Source: Phycisphaerales bacterium (lineage in GTDB: Bacteria; Planctomycetota; Phycisphaerae; Phycisphaerales; UBA1924). Taken from it: 64,000 bases of DNA. The stretch's first letter is position 1, and each line of letters begins with the position of its first letter. Where the stretch lies: NCBI GenBank assembly GCA_020853815.1, contig JADYYE010000022.1:1-64000 (forward strand), given 5' to 3'. Under the pieces are notes generated by a model. It searched no databases and was not told where the DNA came from. It worked only from the letters and a program-made list of their open reading frames with translations. Position numbers and translations under genes: made by a program. Positions 1 through 36,928 of this stretch are shown piece by piece.

Positions 1-2
1 AG

Positions 3-125
3 AACCGCCGCGTCGGCACCCGCTACGACAAACTGGCCACCAGCTTCCTCGCCTTCGTCAACCTCGCCATCATCCGCCGATACCTCCGTATCCTCGCTCC
101 GGACGATCCGTCAAACAGAACCTAG
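3..125 (+). CDS. IS5-type transposase, C-terminal end (truncated by window edge)
   Basis: The frame is open from the first bases to a TAG at 123-125 and gives 40 residues. They contain RVGTRYDKLATSFLAFV followed by a basic tail, which resembles the C-terminal RYDKLA-x3-FLAFV signature of IS5-family (DDE, DUF4096-type) transposases. The N-terminal part and catalytic DDE residues lie outside the window, so activity cannot be judged. I could not identify the right terminal inverted repeat after the stop. It marks the left side of the island-like region. Confidence 0.7.
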   Translation, partial: NRRVGTRYDKLATSFLAFVNLAIIRRYLRILAPDDPSNRT

Positions 126-253
126 TGTGGTAGGAAGCGTTGACGACGCCGGCCCGCGACGACGTTACCAAGCCAACCACGGCCATGCAACTGGCGACAA
201 CACGACAACAAGGCAACCCACTCATCTCGTCTCTCCTCACGCCACCCGTGGTC

Positions 254-13136: not shown

Positions 13137-15830
13137 ATGGAACACGAGTGGAAGACACGCCGGGACCGAATCGACACGAGACTCCGAGCACTCGGATGGA
13201 GCATCGCGCCGTTCGGTCCGTCCACGGATTGTTCCCGCCTTGACCGAGTCGTTCTCACCGAGCTCGATACAGCCCACGGACCTGCGGACTACGCGTTCGT
13301 GCTGCGTGGCAGAGTGGTGGGCATCCTCGAAGCCAAGCGGCTCAACGTGGACCCGGAGAACGTGCTCTCTCAGGCCGAGCGTTACGCACGGGGCTTGCCT
13401 TCCGGCGGATTCGAGCGCGACGGAATTCGTACGCCTTTGCTCTGGTCAACCAACGGCAAGGAGATCTTCTTTCGCGACTGCCGACACCCACTCAACATAA
13501 GCCGATTGGTCGCGGACTACCTGACCCCAGATGGGATCGCGGAGCGATTGCGGGGTGATGATCAGGCTGCCCTTGCTGCGCTGACACTGCTGCCAAACAC
13601 CCATCCCCGCCTGCGGCCATACCAGATCAACGCGAACTCCGCTGTCGAACAGGCGATGATGCAGCGCCGCCGCGAGATGCTCGTCGCGATGGCGACGGGC
13701 ACAGGCAAAACGTTCACCACGGTCAACCAAATCTACCGACTGCTCCGAACGGGCGCGGCCCGCCGTGTCCTCTTTCTCGTCGACAGGCGTGCGCTCGCCG
13801 CACAGGCGGTCCAGGCGTTCAACGCCTTCCGCCCCGACGGAACGACAAAGTTCACCGACCTCTATCAGGTTTTCAGTCAGCGGTTCCGCCGCGAGGACCT
13901 CGACGACGCTGATGCGACGGACCGATTCGACCCGCAGGCGATTCCGTCCGACTACCTGCTTTCACCGCAGCCCAAGCACACCTTTGTTTACGTCTGCACC
14001 GTACAGCGGATGGCGATGAATCTCTTCGGACGCGAGGTGGCTCGGTTTGCCAATGACGAAGCCTTTGACGATGATGCGGACGAAGGCCTCGATATCCCCA
14101 TTCACGCGTTCGACGTGGTGATCGCTGACGAGTGCCACCGCGGGTATACAGCCCAAGAACTCTCCGTCTGGCGTGACACGCTGGAGCACTTCGACGCAGT
14201 CCGCATCGGTCTCACGGCGACGCCCGCCGCCCACACGCTCGCGTACTTCAAGGACACTGTGTTCGAGTACGGCTACCGCCAGGCGGTGCAGGATGGATTC
14301 CTGGTTGACTACGACGCGGTCAAGGTCCAGTCGGGCGTTCGCATCAACGGCGTGTTCCTGAACGAGAACGAAGCCGTCAAGTACATCGACCCGGAGACCG
14401 GTCAAAGGCGACTCGACCGGCTTGAGGCCGAGCGGCAGTTCGATGCTTCAGCGATCGAACGCGAGATCACCGTCCCCGACTCTAACCGCAAGGTTCTGGA
14501 GGAGGTCAAGCGTTACGCGGAGGAGCACGAACGCACGTACGGACGGTTCCCCAAGACGCTCATTTTCGCGGTGAATGACCAACCATTCACGAGCCACGCT
14601 CAAGCAATCGTGGAACTGTGCCGCCAGGTGTTCGGCCGTGGCGAGGAGTTCGTCTCCAAGATCACCGGCACCGTGGACCGACCGCTGCAAGAGATCAAGA
14701 AGTTCCGCAACCGCCCGAACCCCGGCATCGTCGTCTCCGTGGACCTGATGGCCACGGGCGTGGACATCCCGGACCTTGAGTTCATCGTCTTCCTCCGCCC
14801 CGTCAAGAGTCGCATCCTCTTCGAGCAGATGCTCGGACGCGGCACCCGCAAGGGCTTCCACCACCCCGACAAGTCGCACTTCGTCGTGTTCGATTGCTTC
14901 GGCGGCACGCTTTTGGAGTACTTCAAGACCGCCAGCGACTTCGCCGCCGACGCGCCGACGCCTGCCGGCAAGAGCATTCCAGAGTTGATCGAGGATATCT
15001 GGCAGAACCGAGACCGCGACTACGCCACCCGCGTGCTCGTCAAGCGTCTCCACCGCATCGACAAGGAGATGTCGGGGCAGGCCCGCGACCTCTTTGCTGC
15101 GTACATCCCAGAAGGCGATATGGCGAAGTTTGCCTCGGGACTCCCACGGGCACTCCGCGAAGAGTTCAAACCGACCATGACGCTGCTCCGTGACCCAGCG
15201 TTCCAGGACTTGCTCCAGAACTATCCAAGGGCCCCCAGGACCTTCATCGTTGCCGAGGAACAGACAGACACGGTTACGAGCGAGTGGCTCATCCGCGACG
15301 GCCTCGGCAAGGAGCACCGCCCCGAGGAATACCTCGCCGCGTTCAGGAGGTTCGTGACAGAGAACCCAGCCAAAGTAACCGCCATTGAGATTCTGCTCCG
15401 CAAGCCCCGCGACTGGTCCACCCACGCGTTGCAGGAACTCCGCGACAAGCTCGCGGCCACACCCGAACGATTCACGGTGGAGAATCTCCAGCGTGCCCAT
15501 GATGCCCAGTACCGGAAGGCCTTGGTGGACATCATCTCGATGGTCAAGCACGCCGCGGACAACCACGCACCGCTCTACACCGCCCGGGAGCGGGTCGAAC
15601 GTGCCGCCGCGAAAGTGACAGCATCGCTTGCCGCACCGCTCACGCCGCCCCAGCAGCAGTGGCTCGACCGCATCAAGGAGCATCTTGCCCAAAGCCTCTC
15701 CATTGAGCAGGAGGATTTCGAGGTCATCCCCGTGCTCGCCAACGCGGGCGGCTGGGGGGCAGCAAACCGAGCCTTTGGTGGCAAGTTGGATACCGTCATC
15801 CGCACACTGAACGAGGCGATCGCAGCATGA
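13137..15830 (+). CDS. hsdR: Type I restriction enzyme, R subunit
   Basis: The 897-residue protein is the ATP-dependent translocase and nuclease of a type I restriction system. The nuclease domain shows PADYAFVL (about 49-56) and GILEAKR (about 62-68), the D...ExK core. The SF2 motor shows Walker A MATGTGKTFT (about 185-194), DECHRGY (about 331), GLTATP, and the motif VI region EQMLGRGTRKG. The C-terminal 300 residues match the HsdM-interacting helical domain. It is the first gene of an operon in which every junction to hsdS overlaps by a few bases. The ribosome site is weak. Confidence 0.95.
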   Translation: MEHEWKTRRDRIDTRLRALGWSIAPFGPSTDCSRLDRVVLTELDTAHGPADYAFVLRGRVVGILEAKRLNVDPENVLSQAERYARGLPSGGFERDGIRTPLLWSTNGKEIFFRDCRHPLNISRLVADYLTPDGIAERLRGDDQAALAALTLLPNTHPRLRPYQINANSAVEQAMMQRRREMLVAMATGTGKTFTTVNQIYRLLRTGAARRVLFLVDRRALAAQAVQAFNAFRPDGTTKFTDLYQVFSQRFRREDLDDADATDRFDPQAIPSDYLLSPQPKHTFVYVCTVQRMAMNLFGREVARFANDEAFDDDADEGLDIPIHAFDVVIADECHRGYTAQELSVWRDTLEHFDAVRIGLTATPAAHTLAYFKDTVFEYGYRQAVQDGFLVDYDAVKVQSGVRINGVFLNENEAVKYIDPETGQRRLDRLEAERQFDASAIEREITVPDSNRKVLEEVKRYAEEHERTYGRFPKTLIFAVNDQPFTSHAQAIVELCRQVFGRGEEFVSKITGTVDRPLQEIKKFRNRPNPGIVVSVDLMATGVDIPDLEFIVFLRPVKSRILFEQMLGRGTRKGFHHPDKSHFVVFDCFGGTLLEYFKTASDFAADAPTPAGKSIPELIEDIWQNRDRDYATRVLVKRLHRIDKEMSGQARDLFAAYIPEGDMAKFASGLPRALREEFKPTMTLLRDPAFQDLLQNYPRAPRTFIVAEEQTDTVTSEWLIRDGLGKEHRPEEYLAAFRRFVTENPAKVTAIEILLRKPRDWSTHALQELRDKLAATPERFTVENLQRAHDAQYRKALVDIISMVKHAADNHAPLYTARERVERAAAKVTASLAAPLTPPQQQWLDRIKEHLAQSLSIEQEDFEVIPVLANAGGWGAANRAFGGKLDTVIRTLNEAIAA

Positions 15831-16072: not shown

Positions 16073-17556
16073 GCAGTTCCGTCGGCGACAAACTCTGGCA
16101 CCTCTGTCACACCCTCCGCCACGACGGCATCGGGTACATGGACTACATCGAGCAGATCACGTACCTGCTCTTCCTCAAGATGGCCGACGAGAAGTCCGTG
16201 GACCTGCCCAAGGGCTGCCGCTGGCCCGACCTCCGCGACCTCGCGGGCGAAACGCTCACCGACACGTACATCGAGATGCTCCGCAAGCTCGGCAAGGCCG
16301 GTGGCATCCTGACCGAGATTTACTCCGGTGCCCAGTCCCGGTTCACCAAGCCCGTGAACCTCAAGGCCGTCATCAATCTCATCGACGAGGTCGAATGGAC
16401 CAGCCTCGGTGTGGACGTGAAGGCCGAGGCGTACGAGCATCTTTTGGAAAAGGCCGCAAGCGAAGGCAAGAAGGGCGCCGGCCAGTACTTCACGCCCCGC
16501 AAACTCATGCAGTCGATCTGCCGCTGCATTCGCCCAGACCCGCGTGTCGCCAAGGACTTCACGGTCTGCGACCCCGCCTGCGGGACGGGCGGGTTCCTCG
16601 TCTGCGCGTACGAGTGGCTGATGGAACAGACCAAGGGCGGCGCCATCGACCGCGATCTTGCCAGGCGAGTCCGATCGAAGACCTTCATGGGCCAAGACCT
16701 CACCGCCCAGCCCCGCCGGCTGGCGCTCATGAACCTTTTCCTCCACAACGTCGTGCCGACCATCGGCTCGGGCGACACCATCTACGACCCGCCGCCGAGT
16801 GAGAAGTATGACGTCATTCTCACCAATCCACCCTTCGGCACCAAGGGTGCCGGACAAACCCCCAGCCGAGACGACTTCACCGTCGAGACCAGCAACAAGC
16901 AGCTCAACTTCCTCCAGCACATCCTCACCGTGCTCAAGCCCGGCGGCCGGGCTGCAGTAGTCCTGCCCGACAACTGCCTCTTCGCCGACCAGGCTGGCGA
17001 GGTCTTCAAGGTGCTCACTGAGGAGTGCAACCTCCACACCGTGCTCCGTCTGCCTCGCGGCACGTTCACGCCCTACTGCCCCGGCGTCAAAGCCAACGTC
17101 GTCTTCTTCCAGAAGGGTTACCCAACCAAGTCCGTGTGGATCTACGACGCACGTTCCAACGTCCCCAGCATCACGAAGAAGGACCGCCCACTGACGAGCG
17201 AGCACTTTGCCGAGTTTGAGCGCTGCTATGGCATCGACGCCAACGGCCGCTTCGGACCCAAGCAGGGCAAGCCCCGCGACGAGTCCACCAGCCCAGCCGG
17301 CGACAAAGGCTGGCTCGGCGGCGGACGCTGGAAGTCCTTCGGCATCGACGAAGTGAAAGAACGCGAGTTCAAGCTCGACGGCTTCAAGTGGCTCAAGGAC
17401 GAGTCTCTCGACGACGCGGACGAGTTGCCGGAGCCGGAGGAACTTGCCACCGACGCCATCAGCGAGTTGGAGGCCGCCGTCGAGGAACTCCAGATGGTGC
17501 TCACCCTGCTCGACCCCAACGCGGAGCCCGCAGAGGCCCAGGAGGCTCGCGGGTGA
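16069..17556 (+). CDS. hsdM: Type I DNA methyltransferase, M subunit
   Basis: The 495-residue protein starts with the HsdM N-terminal helical domain (LWHLCHTLRHDGIGYMDYIE). It has methyltransferase motif I DPACGTGGF (from about 168) and motif IV NPPFG (253-257), typical of N6-adenine methylation. It would methylate the site chosen by HsdS and form the MTase core. The GTG start overlaps the previous stop as GTGA. The C-terminal 60 residues are acidic and helical, probably contacting HsdS. The next gene overlaps by GTGA at 17553. Confidence 0.95.
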   Translation: MSSSVGDKLWHLCHTLRHDGIGYMDYIEQITYLLFLKMADEKSVDLPKGCRWPDLRDLAGETLTDTYIEMLRKLGKAGGILTEIYSGAQSRFTKPVNLKAVINLIDEVEWTSLGVDVKAEAYEHLLEKAASEGKKGAGQYFTPRKLMQSICRCIRPDPRVAKDFTVCDPACGTGGFLVCAYEWLMEQTKGGAIDRDLARRVRSKTFMGQDLTAQPRRLALMNLFLHNVVPTIGSGDTIYDPPPSEKYDVILTNPPFGTKGAGQTPSRDDFTVETSNKQLNFLQHILTVLKPGGRAAVVLPDNCLFADQAGEVFKVLTEECNLHTVLRLPRGTFTPYCPGVKANVVFFQKGYPTKSVWIYDARSNVPSITKKDRPLTSEHFAEFERCYGIDANGRFGPKQGKPRDESTSPAGDKGWLGGGRWKSFGIDEVKEREFKLDGFKWLKDESLDDADELPEPEELATDAISELEAAVEELQMVLTLLDPNAEPAEAQEARG

Positions 17557-19415
17557 CGCTCACCTTTGACGAACTCTGGAAGCGACTCAACGACCTGGAC
17601 GAGACCGTCCAGATCGAGGCCAAGGCGGGCGAGCAGATCGGCCCGTCGATGCTGGAAACGATCTCCGCCTTCGCCAATGAGCCCGGGCGACACGGTGGCT
17701 ACCTCGTGCTGGGCGTCCAGCGAGCCGAGGATGCGTTGTTCCCAACGTACGAAATCGTCGGCGTGCCCGACAGCGACAAGCTCCAGTCCGACCTCGCGTC
17801 GCAGTGCCGAACTCAGTTCAACGCCCCTATCCGGCCCCAAATCACAGTTGAGGCTCGCGACGGCAAGCGTGTGGTGATCGCGTACGTCCCCGAGGCGGCT
17901 CCCAGCGAGAAGCCGGTCTACATCCAGGCACGCGGCCTGCCCAAAGGGGCCTTTCGCCGCATCGGATCCAGCGACCAAAAGTGCACCGACGACGACCTAG
18001 CTCTGTTCTATCAATCCCAGTCACACAAGTCCCTCGACGAGACCGTGATCGCCGACGGTGAACTGAGCGACTTCGACCCCACCGCGATCCAGGAGTACCG
18101 CCGCACTCGCCGCGAAGCAAATCCGCTCGCCCCGGAACTCGCGTACTCCGATGAGGACCTCCTCTACTCGCTCTCGTGCGTCTCTCGCGTCAGCGGCGTG
18201 GCCCGCCCGACCATCGCCGGCCTCATCCTCTTTGGCAAGCACGCGGCCATCCGTCGCCACTTCCCGCTGATGCGCGTGGACTACATCCGAGTGTCCGGCC
18301 GTGAGTGGGTGAAGTCGCCCGACGAGCGCTTCGATTCCATCGACCTGCTCGGCCCGCTCATGCAGACCATCCCGCGTGCGATCAACGCGGTGCTCGATGA
18401 CATCCCCAAGACCTTCAAGCTCCCTGCGAACTCCAACCGCCGCGAAGATGTCCCGCTCATCCCTCGCACCGCCATCCGCGAGGCCATCGTCAACGCGGTC
18501 ATGCACCGCAGCTACCGACTCAACCAGCCCATCCAGATCATCCGCTACAGCAACCGCCTGGAGATTCGCAATCCCGGCGTCTCGCTGGTGCCCGACGACC
18601 GCCTCGGCGAGCCCGGCTCGCAGCAGCGCAACCCGAAGATCGCCGCGGTCCTCCACGAGACCCGCTTCGCCGAGACCAAGGGCTCCGGCATCCGCGCCAT
18701 GCGAGAAGCCCTGGCGGACGCGAGCCTCAGCCCGCCGACCTTCGAGTCCGACCGCGACAAGGACACGTTCGTTGTCACGTTCCTCTTCCACCACTTCCTC
18801 AGCCCCGAGGACGTGAAGTGGCTCGGCAACTTCGCCAACCTCGAACTCTCCGAGGACGAGCAGCGAGCCCTCGTCTTCGTCCGCGAGGTCGGGGCTATCA
18901 ACAACTCCGCGTACCGTGACCTCAATCGCGTTGAGACCCTTGTCGCGAGCGGGCACCTGCGCCGGCTCCGCGACGACGGTCTACTTGACCAGAAGGGCAA
19001 GGGAGCCGCGACCTACTACGTCCCCACCGAACGCCTCCTGAATCCGGCAACGCAGCCCCCAAGACCCTCCGCCAAGGAGGGCAGTCCCTCCACACCGAAC
19101 TCTGTGGATAAGGCCTTACCTACAGGGTTCCGGGGCAACCTACAGGGCTTACCTACAGACCTCGCCACCGCAGTCCGCGAACTCGGCCTCCGGGCCAGCC
19201 CAGCCGACATCCGGGCGGTCATACAAAGACTCTGTGCCTGGAAGACCCTCTCATCCGAGCAGCTCTCCGAAATCCTCGGCCGCAATCAGCATCACCTCAT
19301 CACCACCCACCTCCGCCCCATGCTCCGGGACGGCGACCTGGACTACCTCTACCCAAACCAGCCCGGCCATCCTCAGCAGGCGTACAAAGTGACGCCGCGA
19401 AAGGCGGGCCCATGA
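17553..19415 (+). CDS. AlbA_2/Schlafen-type regulator with HATPase-like domain
   Basis: The frame is open upstream, but the GTG at 17553 overlapping the hsdM stop (GTGA) is the natural start, giving 620 residues. Residues about 10-150 form an AlbA_2 (Schlafen) domain (VQIEAKAGEQIGPSMLETIS, then GGYLVLGVQ). Residues about 250-410 carry the RecG-like ATP-binding C-terminal domain with AIREAIVNAVMHRSY, LEIRNPG and ETKGSGIRAM. The C-terminal 200 residues contain winged-helix-like segments. This family is often inserted in type I restriction operons and is thought to regulate or modify nucleic acids. Its exact role here is unknown. Confidence 0.8.
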   Translation: MTLTFDELWKRLNDLDETVQIEAKAGEQIGPSMLETISAFANEPGRHGGYLVLGVQRAEDALFPTYEIVGVPDSDKLQSDLASQCRTQFNAPIRPQITVEARDGKRVVIAYVPEAAPSEKPVYIQARGLPKGAFRRIGSSDQKCTDDDLALFYQSQSHKSLDETVIADGELSDFDPTAIQEYRRTRREANPLAPELAYSDEDLLYSLSCVSRVSGVARPTIAGLILFGKHAAIRRHFPLMRVDYIRVSGREWVKSPDERFDSIDLLGPLMQTIPRAINAVLDDIPKTFKLPANSNRREDVPLIPRTAIREAIVNAVMHRSYRLNQPIQIIRYSNRLEIRNPGVSLVPDDRLGEPGSQQRNPKIAAVLHETRFAETKGSGIRAMREALADASLSPPTFESDRDKDTFVVTFLFHHFLSPEDVKWLGNFANLELSEDEQRALVFVREVGAINNSAYRDLNRVETLVASGHLRRLRDDGLLDQKGKGAATYYVPTERLLNPATQPPRPSAKEGSPSTPNSVDKALPTGFRGNLQGLPTDLATAVRELGLRASPADIRAVIQRLCAWKTLSSEQLSEILGRNQHHLITTHLRPMLRDGDLDYLYPNQPGHPQQAYKVTPRKAGP

Positions 19416-19792
19416 AGCGTGACATGGACCTCGTCCGCCTGATCCTTCAAAAAATGGAGGAGCACGAACTCGGCCGAGCCCCCAGCGGCATGACGTTCGA
19501 GGGCTACACCGCCGAGCAGGTTGGCTATCACGTCTTGCTCATGGGTGAAGCAGGCTTGCTGCTCGCCGTCGAGTCCAAGGAGATTGGTCGCAAGTCTCCG
19601 TCGGCCCAACCCATCCGCCTGACCTGGGCCGGGCACGAGTTCCTTGATGCGTCCCGAAGCCCCGAGCGCTGGGAGCGTGCGAAGAGCGCTGCCAAGGGCG
19701 TCGGCGGCCTCGCGTTCGATGTCCTCAAGTCCATCCTGATCACCACCGCCACAGAGGAGGGCTCGGCTTGGCTCAAGTCGCACCTTCCATGA
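19412..19792 (+). CDS. DUF2513 protein
   Basis: The 126-residue product begins MKRDMDLVRLILQKMEEHE, the signature of DUF2513, and continues with a winged-helix-like segment (GYTAEQVGYHVLLMGEAGLL, then RLTWAGHEFLDASR). Related proteins occur in phage and defence loci and are probably DNA-binding. It overlaps the previous gene by four bases and the next by ATGA, which places it firmly inside the restriction operon, between the regulator and the specificity subunit. Confidence 0.85.
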   Translation: MKRDMDLVRLILQKMEEHELGRAPSGMTFEGYTAEQVGYHVLLMGEAGLLLAVESKEIGRKSPSAQPIRLTWAGHEFLDASRSPERWERAKSAAKGVGGLAFDVLKSILITTATEEGSAWLKSHLP

Positions 19793-21855
19793 CATTGCCA
19801 ACACCCGTTCGATCAACGAAGCCTAGAAGTGGGCTGAGCTGGCGCGTCGTGCGGCTCGCAGACGTATGCGAGGTCAATCCCTCGAAGCCAAAGCGCGGCA
19901 CCATCGCGCCCAGCCTTCCGGTGACCTTTGTCCCGATGCCCGCCGTTGACGCAGAATCTGGATCGATTGCGTCTCCATCAGTACGGCCGTACTCCGAGGT
20001 GTCCAAGGGCTTCACGTACTTTGCCGACGGCGATGTGATCATGGCGAAGATCACGCCCTGCATGGAGAACGGCAAGGCGGCCATCGCTCGGCGCCTCACA
20101 AATGGCATCGGCTTTGGTTCAACGGAGTTCCATGTGCTTCGTCCTGCGGAGCAGGTACTCGCGGAGTACGTGTACTACTTCATCCGCCAAGAGGCATTCC
20201 GCCAAGCCGCCGAGATGGAGATGACCGGCTCTGTCGGTCAGAAGCGTGTCCCAGCAGACTTCATCGAGAACGCGGAGCTCCCCCTCCCTCCCCTCGCCGA
20301 GCAGAAGCGGATCGTGGAGGCGATCGAGCGGCTGACGGCCCGCGTGGACGCGGCCCGCGCCCGCCTCGCCGCCGTCCCCGCCATCCTCAAACGCTTCCGC
20401 CAAGCCGTCCTCGCCGCCGCGTGCTCGGGACGGTTGACTGAGGAGTGGCGAGAGTCGCGATCCGGTCATGCCAACGCAAATGACCTCCTACGTCACGCCG
20501 AGACGGTTCGTCGCCAGGCGGGTCGGGTGCCCCGCGTCGAGGGCGCACCCCATGAACTGGATGCACCACCAGCGTGGACTCGCGTCTTCTTCGGCAATCT
20601 ACTCACACTTCTCACTAGCGGATCGCGTGGATGGGCCGAGTTCTACTCGACGACGGGCCCACTCTTCGTCCGTTCGCAGGACATCAACACGGATCGACTT
20701 GTCCTCGACGATGTAGCCCACGTCACGCCACCGGCGCACTCCGCAGATCGCGCCAGGACGCGTGTTCAGCGGCATGACGTGCTGCTCACAATCACGGGCG
20801 CGAACGTGACCAAGTGCGCACTCGTCGACACCGACGTGCCAGAGGCCTATGTCAGCCAGCACGTTGCGCTTTGCCGCCCAGCCTTGCCTTCGCTTGCACC
20901 ATTCCTTCACCTATGGCTGACCAGCCCTCAGCACGGCCGCGGAGTGTTGCTCGACGTCGCGTACGGCGCAGGCAAGCCCGGCCTGAATCTCGACAACATC
21001 AAGGAGATACCTCTCGCATTGCCAACCCCCGAAGAGCAAGCCGAGATCGTCCGCCGCGTCGAGTCGCTCATGAAGCTGGCCGACACCATCGAGCGCCGCG
21101 TCACCGCCGCCCAGGCCCGCGCCGACAAGCTCACCCAGTCCGTCCTCGCCAGGGCGTTCCGTGGCGAACTGGTTCCAGCCATCGAGGCTAAACCCGAAGC
21201 CGTTGCGGACCTCGCTCGGGCGAAGTCCGTCGTGTGGCGGTTCGAGGACTTCGCCGCTGTCCAAGCCGAGATCGTCCGTCGATTCCCCAACGACCCAACG
21301 CTGGGCCGGAAGAAGTTGTTCAAGCTCACCTACCTCGCTGCGGCCCTCTGCAACGCGAAGACCGAGAAGCCGTTGAAGCGCGACGCGGCTGGCCCCTACG
21401 ACGGCAAGTTGCAGGCCGATGTCGAATCCCACGCAGCCAGCCAGAAGTGGTTCACAGCCAACAAAGTCGCTCGTGACGCGGGCGAGGCACACTACCGGCC
21501 AGGAACGCTGGGCACGCACGCTTCCGCGGCGTGCAAAGCCTTGCTCGCCGACCAATGGACACGATTCGATGCACTGCTGGCCGCGTCGAAGTCATGGGAT
21601 TCCAAAGCCGCCGAACTTCACGCGACGACCCACGCCGCGTGGAATGCCCTTCTGGCAGAGGGTGTCGAAGCGACGCCAGACGCGATCGCGAATCGGTTCT
21701 TCGAGTGGAGCAACGAGAAGGCCAAGAAGTTCTCGAAGTGGCAGGTGGAGTCGGCGTGCAAGGCACTTGCGAACATGGGAATCACGCCCACAGGGCGAGG
21801 CCCGATCATCGAGAGAGAATCGACGGCACCGCTGTTCGGAGGAATGTCGCTTTGA
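19789..21855 (+). CDS. hsdS: Type I restriction specificity subunit with extra C-terminal domain
   Basis: Two target-recognition domains are visible. The first runs about residues 15-170 and is followed by a coiled-coil spacer (LAEQKRIVEAIERLTARVDA). The second runs about 255-420 and is followed by EEQAEIVRRVESLMKLADTI and ARAFRGELVP. After this usual HsdS end, about 220 more residues follow (GRKKLFKLTYLAAALCNAKT, DAAGPYDGKL, then helical sequence), a known but uncommon extension. I chose the ATG at 19789 (ATGA overlap, 688 residues) over a TTG at 19768. The two domains would define a bipartite recognition site that I cannot predict. Confidence 0.92.
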   Translation: MTLPTPVRSTKPRSGLSWRVVRLADVCEVNPSKPKRGTIAPSLPVTFVPMPAVDAESGSIASPSVRPYSEVSKGFTYFADGDVIMAKITPCMENGKAAIARRLTNGIGFGSTEFHVLRPAEQVLAEYVYYFIRQEAFRQAAEMEMTGSVGQKRVPADFIENAELPLPPLAEQKRIVEAIERLTARVDAARARLAAVPAILKRFRQAVLAAACSGRLTEEWRESRSGHANANDLLRHAETVRRQAGRVPRVEGAPHELDAPPAWTRVFFGNLLTLLTSGSRGWAEFYSTTGPLFVRSQDINTDRLVLDDVAHVTPPAHSADRARTRVQRHDVLLTITGANVTKCALVDTDVPEAYVSQHVALCRPALPSLAPFLHLWLTSPQHGRGVLLDVAYGAGKPGLNLDNIKEIPLALPTPEEQAEIVRRVESLMKLADTIERRVTAAQARADKLTQSVLARAFRGELVPAIEAKPEAVADLARAKSVVWRFEDFAAVQAEIVRRFPNDPTLGRKKLFKLTYLAAALCNAKTEKPLKRDAAGPYDGKLQADVESHAASQKWFTANKVARDAGEAHYRPGTLGTHASAACKALLADQWTRFDALLAASKSWDSKAAELHATTHAAWNALLAEGVEATPDAIANRFFEWSNEKAKKFSKWQVESACKALANMGITPTGRGPIIERESTAPLFGGMSL

Positions 21856-21918: not shown

Positions 21919-22107
21919 ATGACCCAACCACTTGATCGGACGACATCCCCCGCGATGGCAGACGCTATCGAACGCTGCGCCTCCCCCGCCCGGGCCCGTG
22001 CCGACAAGCCCATCCAGTTCGTTCTCGCCATGGCATTCCGAGGTGAGCTGGTTCCGCCTGATTCCGAAGTGCCACGGACCAGAATACAGGAGAACCACTC
22101 TGCCTGA
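21919..22107 (+). pseudogene. Remnant of an HsdS C-terminal tail
   Basis: The 62-residue frame contains MADAIERCASPARARADKPI and FVLAMAFRGELVP. This parallels the second spacer end of the intact hsdS upstream (LADTIERRVTAAQARADKLT, SVLARAFRGELVP). Everything before it is missing, so it looks like the leftover 3' end of another hsdS gene, for example after a recombination that swapped specificity genes. A ribosome-site-like AGGAAGG lies before its ATG. Its stop overlaps the proposed start of the ATPase gene. Confidence 0.6.
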
Positions 22108-24757
22108 GTCGATTCCCCAACCGCAGCCAGTAGTCGAACACGCTCAGGGAGTCGTTGCGTGGTCCGCTTCGCTACCCGTGTGGATGCAGGATGCACTCCG
22201 TCGGCTTTATTCCCACGATGCACTCACCGCTGAGGATGAGGACGATCTGCTGTGCTTGTGTGTCACGAAGCATGGTCTTTCATACACCTCGGGCAAGACG
22301 GTTGAAGCAAGACCGATCACCGCTGCACATGTCCCAGTCGAAGGGCACACCGGCCCAGCGGTGACCCTCGCGGACATGCTTGATCTACAAAACGTCAACG
22401 CGCTCGCTCCCGACCAGAAGCTCCACTTCGCACAGCGGGGCCTCACGATCGTCTACGGCGCCAACGGGTCGGGGAAGTCCGGCTACGTGCGTGTTCTCGA
22501 GCGCGCGTGTCGAGCACGCCACCGAGAGGAGCGCTTGCTGCCAAATGTCTACGCTGGCGATCCGAATACCCCCGCCAAGGCGACTTTCAAGTTTCGCGAA
22601 GGCGACCAAGACCACAGCGTCTCATGGGAAGACAAGCCGAATACTTCTCCGCCAGCGATGTCCAGAATCAGCGTCTTTGACGCACGCTGCGCCGACGTCC
22701 ATGTCGAAGCGTCGAATGAGCTGGCTTATAGACCCCGCGCTCTCTCCATTCTGTCGGCGCTCGCGAAGACTGCGAAAAGGCTCAAGGAGAAGCTCCAAGC
22801 TGCTGAGAGGAAACTGGAGGCCGAAGGACCGCCGTGGTTGCAAGCTAGTCCACGGCCGTACCACGACTACTCGCGCGTTGGGGAACTCCTCGCTCGCCTT
22901 GCGCCAACTACCGACTGGAACACCGTCGAAGCGCTCGCCGTCGTGAGCGAAGAGGAAAAGCACCGGACCGAGCAACTCCGTCGAGATCTCGGGGAGCCAC
23001 CGGAGAAGGCGATCCAGCGGCATCGGGGTGTACTTGCTCGGCTCAAGGCGGTGATTGATCTTGTGGCTGATGTAGATGAGAAGCTCTCAGACGACCGATT
23101 GGCCGTATTCCGACGGCTCTGCGTCGATGCTGAGACCAATGCCGAGGCCTCTCGGCTGGCTGCTTCACGTGCATTCCGTGATGATCCTCTTCGTGGTGTC
23201 GGTTCGGAGACGTGGCGAGCCTTGTGGGAAGCTGCACGCCAGTTTTCACAGATCGAGGCTTTCCCTAGTCAGCCTTACCCGGTTACTGAGCCCGGCAAGG
23301 CATGCGTTCTGTGCCAACAACCCCTTTCGAACGACGGTGCCGAGCGACTCGCTCGGTTCGAGCGGTTTGTACAAGACACCACGCAGCGCGAGGCGGACCG
23401 AGCGGCAAGCGCGAGGGAAACCGCGAGGAGAGCGTTTGCTGCCGTTGGTCTTGGTGCCAACGCCAGATCCGCCGCGGTCGATCACATCCAGTCCGAGCAC
23501 AATGACGCGGAGCTTGCGAGGTCACTTCGCCTATTCCTTGTCACCGCGCGATTGCGTCAGCGCACACTGAGACGCCTCGGCCACCCGAATGAGCTGCAGA
23601 ACGTCCGGGCGCTCCAAGCGTCACCTAGCTCATCGCTCGCCACGATCTCGCAGCGAATCACCGAGCGGATGAGGCAACTCGCCGATCCTGCCGCGTCTTC
23701 GGCCCGGAAGAAGCTGGAGCGAGAACTTCACGAACTTGAAGACCGCGTCTGGCTTGGATCGGTGCTTGACGTGGTTCGCTCCGAGATTGCACGACTCGGG
23801 AAGCTGGAAAAGGTGAGGGCTGCGATCCGCGACACAAACACGGACCCGATCACCCGCCGCGCCACGTTGCTGGCGAAGGTGCTCGTCACTGACAGGCTAC
23901 GCGATGCCTTCGCCGACGAAGCAAACAAGCTTGGACTGGGGTATCTGCGAGCCGAGATGAAGCAGCTCGGCGGGGACATCGGTGATCCGAAGTTCGGGAT
24001 TCGACTCATTCGCAGCCCGAATGCCAAGATCGGTCAAGTGTTCAGTGAAGGAGAACACAGGTGCATCGCGCTCGCGGCGTTTCTGGCTGAGTTGGCCACG
24101 GCAGACGAGCCATCTGGGCTCGTTTTTGATGACCCGATCTCTTCGCTTGATCACAACCATCGCGAGGATGTTGCCAAGCGGCTCGTTGCCTTGTCCCAGG
24201 TGCGCCAAGTCATCCTGTTCAGCCACGACCTCCCATTCGTGTTCATGCTCGATCACTACGCCGGAGAATGCAATGCGCCGCGGAGCTTTCAGTACATTGC
24301 ACGCACGAATGATCGCGTCGGAATCGCGTCAGCAAACCCGCCGTTCAAAGCTATACCGCCAAGGCGAGCTCTGGAGGGCATCTCCACGCACCTTCGCAAC
24401 AAGTCGCACGCGTACGAAGCGGGACAACACGACGATTGGACCATCGCCGCCAAGGGAATCGCAGGGCATCTCCGCGATTGTTGGGAGCTTGCCGTGGAGC
24501 AGGCTCTGAGGCCTGTTGTCAGCCGGTTCGCACACAAGGTCAAGCCAGGCGAGCTCAAGATCGTTTGTGTCCTGACGCGTACGGATGCTGATGAAGCTGC
24601 GGATGGATACGGTCAGTGCTCAAGGTGGGCGCACAGCGACAGTCCTGAACTGGGCATGAGCTCCCCGACTCCCCAACAACTCACTGAGGAAATTCAGAAG
24701 CTAACGACTTGGCTTGCCCGCGTCGAGTCGGCTCAGCGATCTGCTGGCAGAAGTTAG
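22100..24757 (+). CDS. PrrC/RloC-like ABC ATPase with zinc-hook-like motif
   Basis: The frame is open from 21932, but its first 56 codons overlap the hsdS remnant in another frame. The best ribosome site (AGGAGA, six-base spacing) precedes a CTG at 22100, giving 885 residues. Walker A is GANGSGKS (about 120-127). The signature-like SEGEHR (about 649) and Walker B VFDDPISSLDHNH (about 675-687) match AAA_13 proteins such as PrrC and RloC. A CVLC motif (about 402-405) sits within helical sequence, as in the RloC zinc hook. The C-terminal 130 residues contain RDCWE and a later RWAHSD, possibly nuclease residues. Such proteins guard type I systems against phage counter-defence. Confidence 0.85.
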   Translation: MPESIPQPQPVVEHAQGVVAWSASLPVWMQDALRRLYSHDALTAEDEDDLLCLCVTKHGLSYTSGKTVEARPITAAHVPVEGHTGPAVTLADMLDLQNVNALAPDQKLHFAQRGLTIVYGANGSGKSGYVRVLERACRARHREERLLPNVYAGDPNTPAKATFKFREGDQDHSVSWEDKPNTSPPAMSRISVFDARCADVHVEASNELAYRPRALSILSALAKTAKRLKEKLQAAERKLEAEGPPWLQASPRPYHDYSRVGELLARLAPTTDWNTVEALAVVSEEEKHRTEQLRRDLGEPPEKAIQRHRGVLARLKAVIDLVADVDEKLSDDRLAVFRRLCVDAETNAEASRLAASRAFRDDPLRGVGSETWRALWEAARQFSQIEAFPSQPYPVTEPGKACVLCQQPLSNDGAERLARFERFVQDTTQREADRAASARETARRAFAAVGLGANARSAAVDHIQSEHNDAELARSLRLFLVTARLRQRTLRRLGHPNELQNVRALQASPSSSLATISQRITERMRQLADPAASSARKKLERELHELEDRVWLGSVLDVVRSEIARLGKLEKVRAAIRDTNTDPITRRATLLAKVLVTDRLRDAFADEANKLGLGYLRAEMKQLGGDIGDPKFGIRLIRSPNAKIGQVFSEGEHRCIALAAFLAELATADEPSGLVFDDPISSLDHNHREDVAKRLVALSQVRQVILFSHDLPFVFMLDHYAGECNAPRSFQYIARTNDRVGIASANPPFKAIPPRRALEGISTHLRNKSHAYEAGQHDDWTIAAKGIAGHLRDCWELAVEQALRPVVSRFAHKVKPGELKIVCVLTRTDADEAADGYGQCSRWAHSDSPELGMSSPTPQQLTEEIQKLTTWLARVESAQRSAGRS

Positions 24758-26985: not shown

Positions 26986-27909
26986 GTGTTCCGAACCCTA
27001 TTCTTGCGGATGCCTGCGAACACGCCCGATACTCTGGCTCCAAACTCTCTTGATTGGGCGAGGGCTCACATCTCGAAGTTTGGTGACACAGACGTGTTCC
27101 CAGTTCCGTTCGAGTTCGAGAGTCTCTGGTCAAATTGGCCGTCTGCTCGTGACGCCCTGGCGACGCAAGATCTGAGTAGCGTCCCGAATCGCGGGAGTCG
27201 GACCATTCTCGTTCCCAAACCGCGTGGCGGCTTTCGCGTAGCCACTCAGTTGGATCCGTTGGACTCGCTTACCTATGCGGCGATGGGGTACGAGGCGGCT
27301 CCGAAAATTGAAGCGTCACGAGTTCCGTCGAACCGGAGAATCGCGTGCTCATACCGCCTGGCACCCTCGGCCGCCGGCGAACTCTTCGTGTCAAACGCGG
27401 ATGGTTGGACGGATTTTCAGGGGCAGTCACGAACTCTTGCGGGCCACCGCACTTGTACACACGTAGCCATGGCGGACATCAGTGATTTCTACAATCAGAT
27501 CTACCACCATCGGTTGCACAACTCTCTCGAAACCGCCCTTGTTCCCGAGCCTCGTCCCAGAAACTTGGAGGCCTTTCTCGGACGAGTCACGGCGAAGCAG
27601 TCGCGAGGGATACCCGTTGGTCCGGCGGCATCGATCCTCTTCGCTGAATCGTGTCTAAATGATGTTGATCAGTACTTGGTGAATCACGGATTCGTACACA
27701 CCCGATATGTCGACGATTTTCGCGTGTTCTGCAAGAGCGAAGCCGAAGCTACGCGGGCTCTCCATGACCTGACCCGGTACCTGTTCACCGCTCACAGACT
27801 TTCGCTTCAGGCACACAAGACTCGGATCATGGAAGCGCGCGAGTTCATCAAGCGTGAACTCGTTGAGCCAGAAGATAGGGAGTCCAAGAGCAAGATCGCT
27901 CAGGCCTAG
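26986..27909 (+). CDS. Reverse transcriptase (Abi/unknown-group type), RT half
   Basis: The 307-residue product has the RT palm motifs in order: SRTILVPKPRGGFRVATQLD, DSLTYAAMGYE, MADISDFYNQIYHHRL (first catalytic Asp), SRGIPVGPAASILFAE, and TRYVDDFRVFC with the catalytic YVDD. DFYxxIYxH and GIPVGP are typical of the unknown-group and abortive-infection RTs used in phage defence, not of group II maturases or DGRs. The start (GTG 26986, or ATG 27010) is uncertain. Translation stops at TAG 27907-27909, and the same frame continues immediately as the next entry. The intact protein of this family would include both parts. Confidence 0.85.
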   Translation: MFRTLFLRMPANTPDTLAPNSLDWARAHISKFGDTDVFPVPFEFESLWSNWPSARDALATQDLSSVPNRGSRTILVPKPRGGFRVATQLDPLDSLTYAAMGYEAAPKIEASRVPSNRRIACSYRLAPSAAGELFVSNADGWTDFQGQSRTLAGHRTCTHVAMADISDFYNQIYHHRLHNSLETALVPEPRPRNLEAFLGRVTAKQSRGIPVGPAASILFAESCLNDVDQYLVNHGFVHTRYVDDFRVFCKSEAEATRALHDLTRYLFTAHRLSLQAHKTRIMEAREFIKRELVEPEDRESKSKIAQA

Positions 27910-27912
27910 AAG

Positions 27913-28590
27913 GTGATACAAGAAGCGATTGCCGCTGCGGGTCACTATGGCGATACAGAGATCGATGAGGAGGAAGTGCTCGAGGAAAATGAGCAGAAGA
28001 TTGCGCGGAAGGCACTGCTCGCGACGTTCAAGAGCTGCGTGGAGCGTGCGCCGATCCACTTGGGGCTCGCTCGCTACCTCCTTCGCCGAGCGGCCAGCCT
28101 CCGCCTGCGCGTACTCGTGCGACCTGCCGTGGAGAACATGCCCGCGCTCACACCAGTCTTCCGGGAACTTGTTCAGTATCTTGATCGCGTGTGGCACTCA
28201 GAGGTGCAGGAAATCGTCAGTGATGCACTACCCGGTTTCCTTAGAGACGACCCACAAGGGTGGTTGCCGTATGTTCAGGATTGGTCCTTGTGGCTGGTCA
28301 CCAAACGCGATGTTCTCACGCCCTCAAGGGCAGTCGCCTTGGCTGAAAAGACTGATCCAACGCTTCGAGTTCGACATCGGGCGCTGTTGGCGATGAAGCT
28401 CAAGCAGGTAGATTGGATTCGCGAGCAGAAGGAAGTCTGGATGAACTTTGGTCCGCGGGAGCGCCGGGCGATCCTGTGGGCAGCGTCAGCGCTGTCCAGA
28501 GACGAGCGACGAGCTTGGCTGGAGCCGATAGCCGCATCCACGGATCTCGTCGATGCTTCGATCGCGATAAAGGTGCGGTCATTGCCTTAG
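27913..28590 (+). CDS. C-terminal helical (alpha-Rep-like) half of the reverse transcriptase
   Basis: This 225-residue frame is in phase with the RT frame; only TAG and AAG separate them. It is all-helical with repeat-like units: LARYLLRRAASLRLRVLVRP, MPALTPVFRELVQYLDRVW, REQKEVWMNFGPRERRAILW and DERRAWLEPI. These resemble the C-terminal helical domain I associate with Abi-type RTs. A GTG at 27913 has no ribosome site, so independent translation looks unlikely. Either the gene is broken by an amber mutation, or read-through produces a 534-residue protein. It ends with tandem TAG codons at 28588-28593. Confidence 0.7.
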   Translation: MIQEAIAAAGHYGDTEIDEEEVLEENEQKIARKALLATFKSCVERAPIHLGLARYLLRRAASLRLRVLVRPAVENMPALTPVFRELVQYLDRVWHSEVQEIVSDALPGFLRDDPQGWLPYVQDWSLWLVTKRDVLTPSRAVALAEKTDPTLRVRHRALLAMKLKQVDWIREQKEVWMNFGPRERRAILWAASALSRDERRAWLEPIAASTDLVDASIAIKVRSLP

Positions 28591-28756
28591 TAGATGGCGA
28601 CGTCGCCGAAAGTAGACGGTTGTTCCGGGCACAACCGCCAAAGCCACGAACTGACTCACCTTCTTGGCGTGCAGGGTCATGCACCGGGCACGCCTGACCT
28701 TCACAGCATCATCATGCGAACCTCCTTGGGCATGCCGCCTGCGCCCTGCCGGGCTG

Positions 28757-29600: not shown

Positions 29601-29773
29601 ATTTGCACCCTCTTCACGCATCACGACCCGCGGCAGCCACCATGGCCGACCGCGGGCATGTCCTCGTCGCCCCTCTTCCGTGGGGAATCAATCGGATAGA
29701 ACGCCGGGATTGGTCCTTGGTGGAGGGAACGCCCCTCCAGAACAGCAAGGGTTTGCTCCGACGAGCCTCCGTC

Positions 29774-29807
29774 GAACCGGACGAGCGTCTCTCGACGCAT
29801 CCGGCTC
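29774..29807 (-). ncRNA. Group II intron domain V-like hairpin
   Basis: On the minus strand these 34 nt have the exact layout of group II intron domain V. The lower stem is GAGCCGGA/UCCGGUUC with the AGC triad at positions 2-4. The upper stem is GCGUC/GACGC capped by a GAGA tetraloop, and a short bulge lies on the 3' side. Length and loop match the domain V of well-known introns. No maturase gene lies upstream on this strand and no clear domain VI or 5' GUGYG end was found, so this is probably a remnant or an unusual arrangement. Confidence 0.6.
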
Positions 29808-29824
29808 TACGGGCCCACATCCGC

Positions 29825-32338: not shown

Positions 32339-32632
32339 ATGACCGAACGCATCTTCAGCCCCGGAGTGCTCCCCGCCCACTATCGGCGCGACGCCGAAGG
32401 GCGGCTCGTGGAAGTCGCGCCCGCCATGCCCTGCCCGGAACTCCTGACCGAGGAAGAAGCCCTCCGGTATCTCCGCTTGGACATCATCGACATCGACAAT
32501 CCAGAGGACACGCTCCGGCGCTACCGCAAGCTCGGCCTCATCCGGGGAACCCAGGTGGGCAAGTGTGTACGGTACCGAAGGCAGGAGTTGGAGAGGTTCC
32601 TGGAACGAATCACCGAGAACAACCCCCGCTGA
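32339..32632 (+). CDS. Helix-turn-helix (HTH_17-like) protein
   Basis: The 97-residue product has LLTEEEALRYLRLDIIDIDN and TLRRYRKLGLIRGTQVGKCV, then RYRRQELERFLERI, the layout of excisionase-type DNA-binding domains. The 28-bp gap to the integrase start at 32661 suggests co-transcription. It is likely a directionality factor or regulator of the integrase. Confidence 0.75.
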   Translation: MTERIFSPGVLPAHYRRDAEGRLVEVAPAMPCPELLTEEEALRYLRLDIIDIDNPEDTLRRYRKLGLIRGTQVGKCVRYRRQELERFLERITENNPR

Positions 32633-32660
32633 AACGCGGGTGCGAGAAGGGACATGCATC

Positions 32661-33860
32661 ATGGCGGACAAGCCGAGAGTCACGCTCGCGAGCAACGGCG
32701 GGTATTGGCTAGCCTACTTCTATGACTCACTCGGGCGTCGCAGAGCCAGGAGTCTTGGCTCCAAGTCCGAAGTCGGCCGTCGCCAAGCGCTCGTGCTTTG
32801 CGAACGGCTGGCGATCGAGCTCGCCGCCCAGCCGCAAAAAGCCGACGTCGGACGAGCCCCGACCATGGCCGAGTGGATCCAGGTATTCATCACTCTCAAG
32901 CCCGATCTCGGAGCGCGGGCAAGGCGAGCCTACCGCCAGGCGGCCGAGAGGTTCATGAAGTTCTCGGGCACCACAACGCGGATCGACCGGATCACCGCCA
33001 CCGTGGCCGCGGAATGGGTCGCGACGCTCGGCACGCCATACGTCGTGATACAGGATGGCAAGGAACTGAGCCGCACGCTATCGCCATCCACCGTTGCACA
33101 CTACTCCCGGCACGTCCGCTGCATCTTCAACGAAGCCGTGCATCAGGGCGTTCTGGCGGTTAACCCGTTCGCGCGAATCCGCACACAGCCCAAGAAAATC
33201 GAGCGGAGCTGGTGCTATGTCGACCGCGACGTGTTCAATCGCATCCTCGCAGTCTGCCGGAACGATGGATGGAGGTGCTTTGTCGCCTTGCAACGGTTTG
33301 GAGCGTTGCGCAAGGGCGAGGCGTTGGACGTGCGATGGCACATGATCGACTGGGAACGCCACATCCTCACCATCCCGGAGGTCATCACGAAGACCAGCCA
33401 GGAGCGGCTTGTGCCGCTCGACCCCACCCTTTTCGACCTGCTCAAAGCGGCAAGACGCGACCGCAAAGACACCGATTTCATCGTCCACGAGCACGATGTG
33501 GACCGTCGCAGCGACAGCAACCAGCACAGCCGATTCCGGACGGTCCTGAAAAAGGCCGGGGTGCTGCCGTGGGAGGACCTCTTCCAGACGCTTCGCCGCA
33601 ACGCGGTTCAGGACTTGCGGGAAGCCCTCAAGGACCCCTGGGCCGTGACTGCAATCGCCGGTCACTCGGAGGAAGTCGAGCGGAAGTACTACCTTGGCCG
33701 CGTCCGACAGGCCGACATCGAGAGGATCACTGGCGCAGCCAAGGACGCAGAGCTCGACCTCGTTCTCGCCCGCTGGAAGTCACTGTCGCGAGAGACCCGC
33801 GAGAGGATTCTCAGTTTGGTCCGAACGCCCGACGCCGGCGCGTCGCCGTCTACGCCGTGA
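32661..33860 (+). CDS. Tyrosine integrase of the island
   Basis: The ATG at 32661 follows GAGAAGG and gives 399 residues. The domains are an N-terminal arm-binding part (GGYWLAYFYDSLGRRRARSL), a core-binding domain (about 65-170) and a catalytic domain. Residues seen are Arg in FGALRKGEALDVRW, Lys in TKTSQERLVPL, Gln-Thr-Leu-Arg replacing the usual His-x-x-Arg (FQTLRRNAV), His in IAGHSEEVERKYYLGRV, and the Tyr nucleophile there. It lies about 680 bp from the 3' end of tRNA-Lys, the classic position for an integrase using that tRNA as attachment site. Confidence 0.9.
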   Translation: MADKPRVTLASNGGYWLAYFYDSLGRRRARSLGSKSEVGRRQALVLCERLAIELAAQPQKADVGRAPTMAEWIQVFITLKPDLGARARRAYRQAAERFMKFSGTTTRIDRITATVAAEWVATLGTPYVVIQDGKELSRTLSPSTVAHYSRHVRCIFNEAVHQGVLAVNPFARIRTQPKKIERSWCYVDRDVFNRILAVCRNDGWRCFVALQRFGALRKGEALDVRWHMIDWERHILTIPEVITKTSQERLVPLDPTLFDLLKAARRDRKDTDFIVHEHDVDRRSDSNQHSRFRTVLKKAGVLPWEDLFQTLRRNAVQDLREALKDPWAVTAIAGHSEEVERKYYLGRVRQADIERITGAAKDAELDLVLARWKSLSRETRERILSLVRTPDAGASPSTP

Positions 33861-34446: not shown

Positions 34447-34538
34447 GGCCGCTCACTCCGCGACCAAACTGACACAAAAACTGGCACAAACCGAGGGTGG
34501 GCTGCGCCGGCTCGCGCGCAAACCCTTGGAACTTCAAG

Positions 34539-34611
<73 letters not shown>

Positions 34612-34879: not shown

Positions 34880-36928
34880 ATGAAATCGCGTCGGAGCATG
34901 AGTCTGCCCGCGGTCTTGGCCGCGGTTGGCGCACCGGTAGGGAGCGGCCTGGTCGCGCGTGCGGCGGGTTGGCCGTGGTGGTTGGTGCTTGGTGCCGTCG
35001 TCGTCGCGCTCGCGGTCGTGATCCTGACGCAGCGGCGTGAGCTGTTCACGCCGTTCATGGAGAAAGTCGTAGAGCCGGAAATCACTCGTCCGCACGATGA
35101 AGCCAAGCGCACGCGATATATGGTTCTCCTCTGGCTCGCGGTCGGCGCTTCGTTGATCGCGGTCGTGCTCGGTGCGGGGCAATGGGGCTGGGCGGCGTTC
35201 ACGCTTTCCCTCGGCGGAGCGCTGGTATATCACGGCTCCAAGGTCCATGTCCCGCGCGGGCGCGGGCGCGCCGCCGCGAGCATTGCCGTGGGCGGGTTCC
35301 TCGTCTCTCTGAGCGCGAACTTCATCGCGGGCGCGCTGGCGGGAGAGACCGCCCTCGACAAGAGCGTCGCGAACATCGACACCAACGTCCGCGCACTACT
35401 CGGCCTGACCAAAAAGATCGACGAAACCACGACCCGGACCGAAGGCAAGGTCGACAAGTCAAACGAGCAGCTTGCGCTCATTCTGAAATACCTCGAATCC
35501 CAGAAGCAACCCGGCGTCGATCCGTCGAGCGTGCCCGTGCCGCCCGAAGTACTCGCGGCCGCACACGCCCTGATGAAATCCAAGGATGCTCACGATCGCG
35601 CGCAGGCGGCCATCGTCTTGAAACAATGGGATGCGGCCAAGAGAGAGATCGACGCGTTCAATGCCTCGCCCGCGGAGGACGAAGTCTTCCGCAACAAGAC
35701 CATCGAGGGGCGCTTCTACTTCGCTCAGCGGCGATTTGACGATGCGGTGCCTCCGTACGAGATTGCGTTTGCGCTCCGTCCCGATGAACTCGACGCTCGC
35801 AACAACCTCGCGATCGCGCTGCAAAGTTGCAAAATCGGTGACATCAGCGCCAAGCGCCTTCGCGCGATCGATATTCACAAGTCCTCGCTTGCAAGGCCTG
35901 ATATCGCGCGCACTCACTGGGCCTTGATCCAGAACAACCTGAGTGCTGCTCTGAACGATCAGGCCTTGGCCAGCGAGAGCGCGGAGCGGGCCCGCCTGCT
36001 CGGCGAAGCTGTGGCGGCGTGCCGCGAGGCGCTCACGGTCCGCACCCGCGACGCTCTGCCGCAGGAGTGGGCCATGACCCAAATCAACCTTGGCAAGGCC
36101 CTGCACAGTCAAGCGATGGCTTGTGAGGGTGCGGAACGGGCACGACTGTTCGTTGAAGCGGTAACCGCGTTCCGTGAAACGCTCACGGTCTATTCCCGCA
36201 ACTCTCTGCCGCAGGAGTGGGCCTTGACCCAGAACAACCTGGGCGCTGCCTTGACCTACCAGGCCTCGGCCAGCGAGGGCGCGGAGCGGGCCCGCCTGCT
36301 CGGCGAAGCTGTGGCGGCGTGCTGCGAGGCGCTCACGGTCCGCACCCGCGACACCCTGCCGTACGATTGGGCTATGACCCAAAGCAACCTTGGCAATGTT
36401 CTGAGCGATCAGGCCTTGGCCAGCGAGAGCGCGGAGCGGGCCCGCCTGCTTGGCGAAGCTGTGGCGGCGTGCCGCGAGGCGCTCACGGTCCGCACCCGCG
36501 ACGCTCTGCCGTACGATTGGGCCGAGACCCAGAGCGGCCTCGGCATCGCCTTGGGTAATCAGGCGCTGGCAAACGAGGGTGCGGAGCGGGCCCGCCTGCT
36601 CGGCGAAGCAGTGGAGGCGTTCCGTGGAACCCTCACGGTCTGCACCCGAGACACCCTGCCGTACGCCTGGGCCATGACCCAGAGCAACCTTGGCTTCGCC
36701 TTGGCTAGTGAGGCGCTGGCCAGCGAGGACACTGAGAGATCCCAGCTACTGAGGTCTTCGATCGCCGCGTGCAAGGGTGCGCTCGCGATCCTGACACACG
36801 AGCACTTTCCTGTCGGCCACGAGATGGCCTTGGAAAACCTGAAGATCGCTCGCGACCTTTACGAATCCTCCGGCTGCTCATCCGGCCCCGACGGCGTTCC
36901 GTTCGACGACATCCCCCCGGCGGAGTGA
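34880..36928 (+). CDS. Membrane protein with tandem TPR-like repeats
   Basis: The 682-residue protein has three to four membrane helices near the N-terminus (about 10-50, 75-115 and 125-145) and a helical linker. TPR-like units follow. Five or six are nearly identical 50-residue copies with the theme WAMTQSNLGNVLSDQALASE followed by ARLLGEAVAACREALTVRT. The long repeats place it among large TPR proteins that act as scaffolds. The C-terminal region would probably extend into the cytoplasm or periplasm, which is undetermined. It is the first gene outside the island and has no clear partner. Internal DNA repeats suggest recent copy changes. Confidence 0.85.
   Translation: MKSRRSMSLPAVLAAVGAPVGSGLVARAAGWPWWLVLGAVVVALAVVILTQRRELFTPFMEKVVEPEITRPHDEAKRTRYMVLLWLAVGASLIAVVLGAGQWGWAAFTLSLGGALVYHGSKVHVPRGRGRAAASIAVGGFLVSLSANFIAGALAGETALDKSVANIDTNVRALLGLTKKIDETTTRTEGKVDKSNEQLALILKYLESQKQPGVDPSSVPVPPEVLAAAHALMKSKDAHDRAQAAIVLKQWDAAKREIDAFNASPAEDEVFRNKTIEGRFYFAQRRFDDAVPPYEIAFALRPDELDARNNLAIALQSCKIGDISAKRLRAIDIHKSSLARPDIARTHWALIQNNLSAALNDQALASESAERARLLGEAVAACREALTVRTRDALPQEWAMTQINLGKALHSQAMACEGAERARLFVEAVTAFRETLTVYSRNSLPQEWALTQNNLGAALTYQASASEGAERARLLGEAVAACCEALTVRTRDTLPYDWAMTQSNLGNVLSDQALASESAERARLLGEAVAACREALTVRTRDALPYDWAETQSGLGIALGNQALANEGAERARLLGEAVEAFRGTLTVCTRDTLPYAWAMTQSNLGFALASEALASEDTERSQLLRSSIAACKGALAILTHEHFPVGHEMALENLKIARDLYESSGCSSGPDGVPFDDIPPAE
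35930..36800 (+). repeat. Tandem 150-bp repeats inside the TPR gene
   Basis: Copies start near 36000, 36150, 36300, 36450 and 36600. The segment CGGCGAAGCTGTGGCGGCGT is identical in the copies at 36001 and 36301. The period is exactly 150 bp, i.e. 50 codons, so gain or loss of a unit keeps the frame. Confidence 0.85.

Follow-up and report, generated by a model that had tools for sequence, protein, structure and literature searches.

A defence-type reverse transcriptase (RT) gene in a 64,000-nucleotide stretch of a Phycisphaerales draft genome (GCA_020853815.1, contig JADYYE010000022.1, positions 1 to 64,000; hereafter the window) is interrupted by a single in-frame TAG, which raises the question of whether the gene has been inactivated, is decoded through the stop or encodes an enzyme made in two parts. 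An earlier note on this DNA had described one frame split only by that codon, and translation of positions 26986–28590 agrees with this description, with exactly one internal stop at 27907–27909, followed in the same frame by AAG and by GTG at 27913. The motifs YVDD, DFYNQIYHH and GIPVGP precede the TAG, and after it the frame stays open up to a tandem TAGTAG at 28588–28593. On sequence grounds the ATG at 27010 is a more likely start than the GTG at 26986, since similarity to the closest homologue starts only about there, and counted from this ATG the TAG is codon 300 of 526. The chance of a 226-codon open run is about 2% in the G+C-rich DNA of the window, which is not very improbable; openness by itself is therefore weak proof, and the case for a single gene rests on homology, as both halves match one DRT8 profile with ordered and continuous coordinates. 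Our preferred reading, to which we assign a probability of roughly 0.75, is that this was a standalone DRT8 gene on a genomic island and that a nonsense mutation of a single base, at codon 300, has recently inactivated it.

Table 1 Features of the disrupted DRT8 gene and of its surroundings, in window coordinates.
Feature	Coordinates	Strand	Evidence and remarks
Type I restriction HsdR	13137–15830		Left of DRT8
Schlafen/AlbA-type ATPase	17388–19415		Left of DRT8
Type I HsdS	19768–21855		Left of DRT8
PDC-S06 AAA protein	21932–24757		Left of DRT8
Disrupted DRT8 (UG7) reverse transcriptase gene	27010–28590	+	526 codons with the TAG passed over; alternative GTG start at 26986; Drt8 E=5.7e-140; 65% identical to an intact homologue
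RT-like palm/fingers domain, reaching into the beginning of the helix before the repeat domain	27010–27906	+	RVT_1 E=1.2e-16; Drt8 E=2e-108; model residues 1–299
In-frame TAG, codon 300	27907–27909	+	Within predicted helix 290–309; the closest homologue has AAG (Lys)
C-terminal helical-repeat (alpha-Rep/HEAT-like) domain, ending at TAGTAG	27910–28590	+	Drt8 profile 289–483, E=1.2e-27; all-helical model; extent as in DRT6, DRT4 and AbiK structures
Tyrosine recombinase (integrase) of the island	32565–33860	+	Pfam Phage_integrase E=5.4e-12; right of DRT8
tRNA-Lys(CTT), presumed site of integration and right island border	34539–34611	-	tRNA search; DNA-similarity boundary

The joined frame matched the PADLOC Drt8 profile best (E=5.7e-140; frame residues 18–523, profile positions 3–482 of 493), with RT_UG21 as the next best profile (1e-53), and this near-full-length best match was reached only with the joined frame. 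Taken separately, the part before the TAG matched profile positions 3–279 and the part after it positions 289–483 (E-values in Table 1), and the order of these coordinates across the TAG indicates that the two halves are consecutive pieces of one protein. A Pfam RVT_1 match lies in the RT half, the catalytic YVDD is present and the invariant columns R199, G200, G204, P205, R232, D235 and D236 (A1) are kept. By its profile match the joined frame is a DRT8, which we take to be UG7. The gene resembles DRT8 (UG7) systems in that both halves match the profile in order and at nearly full length, with RT motifs and a helical-repeat domain, but differs from them in the TAG at codon 300, so that the two domains do not lie in one uninterrupted frame. 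Judged by its sequence, the gene is a DRT8 by descent, an assignment that makes no claim to a working system. A gene for an effector of the PNP/SLOG kind is reported to accompany some DRT8 systems (PMC10952713); none was recognised among the scanned neighbour genes of the DRT8 gene in the window.

Comparison with homologues shows what is expected at the TAG position. A search of 163 genomes from the same bacterial family turned up a single other DRT8 gene (L120:9772–11352), in a genome of a different genus (G406). This homologue shares 65% protein identity over its whole length, forms one uninterrupted frame of 531 codons between stops and has AAG (Lys) opposite the TAG of the window, from which AAG differs by one base. 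It has the same domain order and is likewise apparently standalone, but it has no internal stop, lies outside a restriction island and directly follows an isocitrate dehydrogenase-like gene, so that the two loci have no partner gene in common. A sense codon occupies the TAG column in all 40 aligned full-length homologues, which come from many phyla (30 Leu, 4 Ile, 2 Val, 2 Arg, 1 Lys and 1 Thr), and none of the 40 ends or is split at this position; a natural split there was consequently rejected. The earlier note had named a normal two-gene system as the finding that would overturn its view, whereas every one of these homologues, including the 65% identical one, continues in frame, and together with the Drt8 profile they confirm its description of an Abi/UG-type defence RT that carries the helical part in the same polypeptide. 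Left out of the alignment were L036, a distant homologue with a TAG elsewhere (about query residue 139) that is unrelated to the TAG of the window; L040, which stops close to a contig end; L042–L044, which match the first part of the query only; and L039, which is frame-shifted relative to its reported range. Phage and viral-contig relatives included none of use, and the plasmid relatives, the best of them up to 39% identical, were not informative on the TAG.

For the joined frame, AlphaFold gave a model (mean pLDDT 82.7, pTM 0.83) in which the N-terminal half is RT-like and the C-terminal half is all-helical. The model thus presents the architecture of class 1 UG/Abi RTs, an RT-like fold without a canonical thumb followed by an alpha-helical repeat domain. 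Alignments spanning both domains (model residues 12–521) were obtained with DRT6 (9wy8; Z 21.0, 4.5 Å over 450 residues), DRT4 (9vdo; Z 18.0, 4.8 Å over 447 residues) and AbiK (7z0z; Z 16.4, 4.4 Å over 459 residues), although sequence identity to these three proteins is only ~13–16% and, unlike the gene in the window, they are intact and active. Codon 300 falls within a predicted helix (residues 290–309), with pLDDT around the break of only ~60, and a disordered or low-confidence linker (residues 310–327) comes after this helix in the model. AbiA, AbiK, Abi-P2 and DRT3b lack the thumb, and its position is taken by the first part of their helical domain; the helical domain of DRT3b also drives oligomer formation (PMC11077055; PMC13174585).

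If suppression or programmed readthrough inserted an amino acid at the TAG, some full-length DRT8 would be made, and both the open frame on either side of the TAG and the intact sequence past it would agree with this. However, none of the 48 tRNA genes in the ~94% complete assembly (found with Infernal, anticodons read by ARAGORN) has the anticodon CTA, so that the search for a suppressor tRNA suggested in the earlier note came back empty, and no PylS match in the genome exceeded the cut-off, the best (20.9 bits) being sub-threshold, as in most control genomes; recoding or suppression of TAG was rejected on these grounds. General reassignment of TAG was likewise rejected, because TAG terminates several genes of the window and after most of them the frame closes within 0–70 codons. 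The neighbouring 941-aa AAA protein ends in TAG at a point where the profile match is already complete (854 of 858), with the frame open for 198 codons thereafter, and this ending, together with the doubled TAGTAG at the end of the DRT8 gene, marks TAG as an ordinary stop here. As a stop at this place occurs in no homologue either, we consider readthrough very unlikely and the least probable of the readings. The intact and conserved second half could alternatively belong to a two-subunit DRT8, in which translation stops at the TAG and reinitiates at the in-frame GTG one codon past it (TAG-AAG-GTG), the RT and helical-repeat parts assembling in trans; if so, a thumb-replacing repeat domain would be able to work as a separate subunit. 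Against this arrangement, no homologue is split, the break cuts a predicted helix and not the disordered linker that follows, and the sole ribosome-site-like sequence before the GTG is a 3-base AGG (27902–27904), in line with the earlier remark that the second half lacks a ribosome site. The GTG column is, moreover, hydrophobic in most homologues, which argues that this codon is an ordinary ancestral residue and not a start evolved for the purpose. Such a two-subunit enzyme therefore appears quite unlikely, while low-level reinitiation with complementation between fragments is possible. Of the three options given in the earlier note, recent inactivation is accordingly the best supported, whereas readthrough and two subunits found no support, given the missing suppressor tRNA and PylS, the use of TAG as an ordinary stop and the position of the break within a helix.

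The main alternative to a nonsense mutation is an error of sequencing or assembly, with a sense codon in the true genome and an intact DRT8. The draft assembly, with a completeness of 93.7% and a contamination of 3.76%, comprises 329 contigs, one of which looks foreign, and apart from the one base nothing in the gene points to decay. On the other hand, a consensus error is unlikely to take the form of a single substitution that happens to create a stop, and no stop interrupts the other long frames of the window; we regard an error as unlikely. The state of the sequence after the stop bears on both readings. Strongly conserved positions after the TAG are kept at 14 of 24 in the window and 16 of 24 in the G406 homologue, and changes derived relative to distant homologues number 2 in the window versus 5 in G406 before the TAG and 6 versus 5 after it. 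The claim that both halves are otherwise intact therefore stands, with no further stop and no clear decay downstream of the TAG, a pattern that fits a recent mutation but would equally fit a sequence error or continued use of the second half. As there is only one close homologue, the age of the mutation is loosely bounded.

Under the preferred reading of a recent nonsense mutation, a single-base change (AAG to TAG in terms of the closest relative) would have placed a stop at codon 300 of a DRT8 gene. The intact protein would have been a class 1 UG RT with an RT-like palm and fingers followed by the helical-repeat domain, the first part of which would replace the thumb while the domain as a whole would build the oligomer. 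Class 1 UG RTs defend against phages by making DNA without a nucleic acid template; untemplated, protein-primed synthesis is a property of class 1 UG/Abi RTs that is not established for DRT8 (PMC13213688), and the activity of the intact enzyme is extrapolated here by analogy with AbiK, DRT4, DRT6 and DRT3b. Translation would now halt within the helix linking the two domains and yield a thumbless RT fragment of ~299 residues, which should be inactive and is probably unstable, and the downstream repeat domain would be untranslated or barely translated. Loss of activity is expected from a product that ends at residue 299 and lacks the domain that replaces the thumb and builds the oligomer, so that the gene is probably inactive; the lack of clear decay after the stop suggests that the event was recent. 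DRT8 is a known kind of system, and as all 40 homologues have a sense codon at the TAG position, the copy in the window is most likely a recently broken one and not a new split or recoded enzyme. One more DRT8 gene, and a broken one, has little significance by itself, but it suggests that defence genes of mobile islands can be lost through point mutation with the surrounding sequence still intact, and it cautions against inferring recoding or a split enzyme from one in-frame stop when the genome is a draft.

The DRT8 gene sits in a mobile defence island at a tRNA-Lys(CTT) gene, beside a type I restriction system (Table 1). DNA similarity to three genomes of the same genus starts at window positions 34532–34536, at the tRNA, and extends rightwards only, as expected of an island integrated there. 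The first 40 kb of the window contained no second copy of the tRNA end, and apart from a 125-bp end repeat the left end of the window matched nothing convincingly in the chromosomes of these three genomes that would mark the left border. This repeat (window 1–127) is a dispersed sequence that breaks the assembly, the first ~125 bases of the contig recurring at the ends of contigs C327, C160, C207 and C162 and inside C222 and C292. In a same-genus genome, an identical 46-base copy of the 3′ part of tRNA-Lys lies ~13 kb before the full tRNA (L127 and L129; G444:C54:17030 and 3779), as expected for the att sites of a different island at the same tRNA.

Other elements were also observed in the window and the assembly. 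A clear 3′ end of a group II intron lies on the minus strand at window 29691–29809 (48.5 bits to Rfam RF00029) and comprises domain VI and a well-paired domain V; no intron-encoded RT for it was recognised in the genome, and it is possibly a truncated intron within the island. The only other RT in the assembly (L123; G000:C306, 3564 bases) is a single 1187-aa frame that is open at both ends and fills its contig; judged by eye, it looks like a eukaryotic non-LTR (R2-like) element and probably represents contamination. Immediately beyond the border of the island, window 34880–36928 encodes a 682-aa frame with a run of 150-base (50-aa) tetratricopeptide-like repeats.
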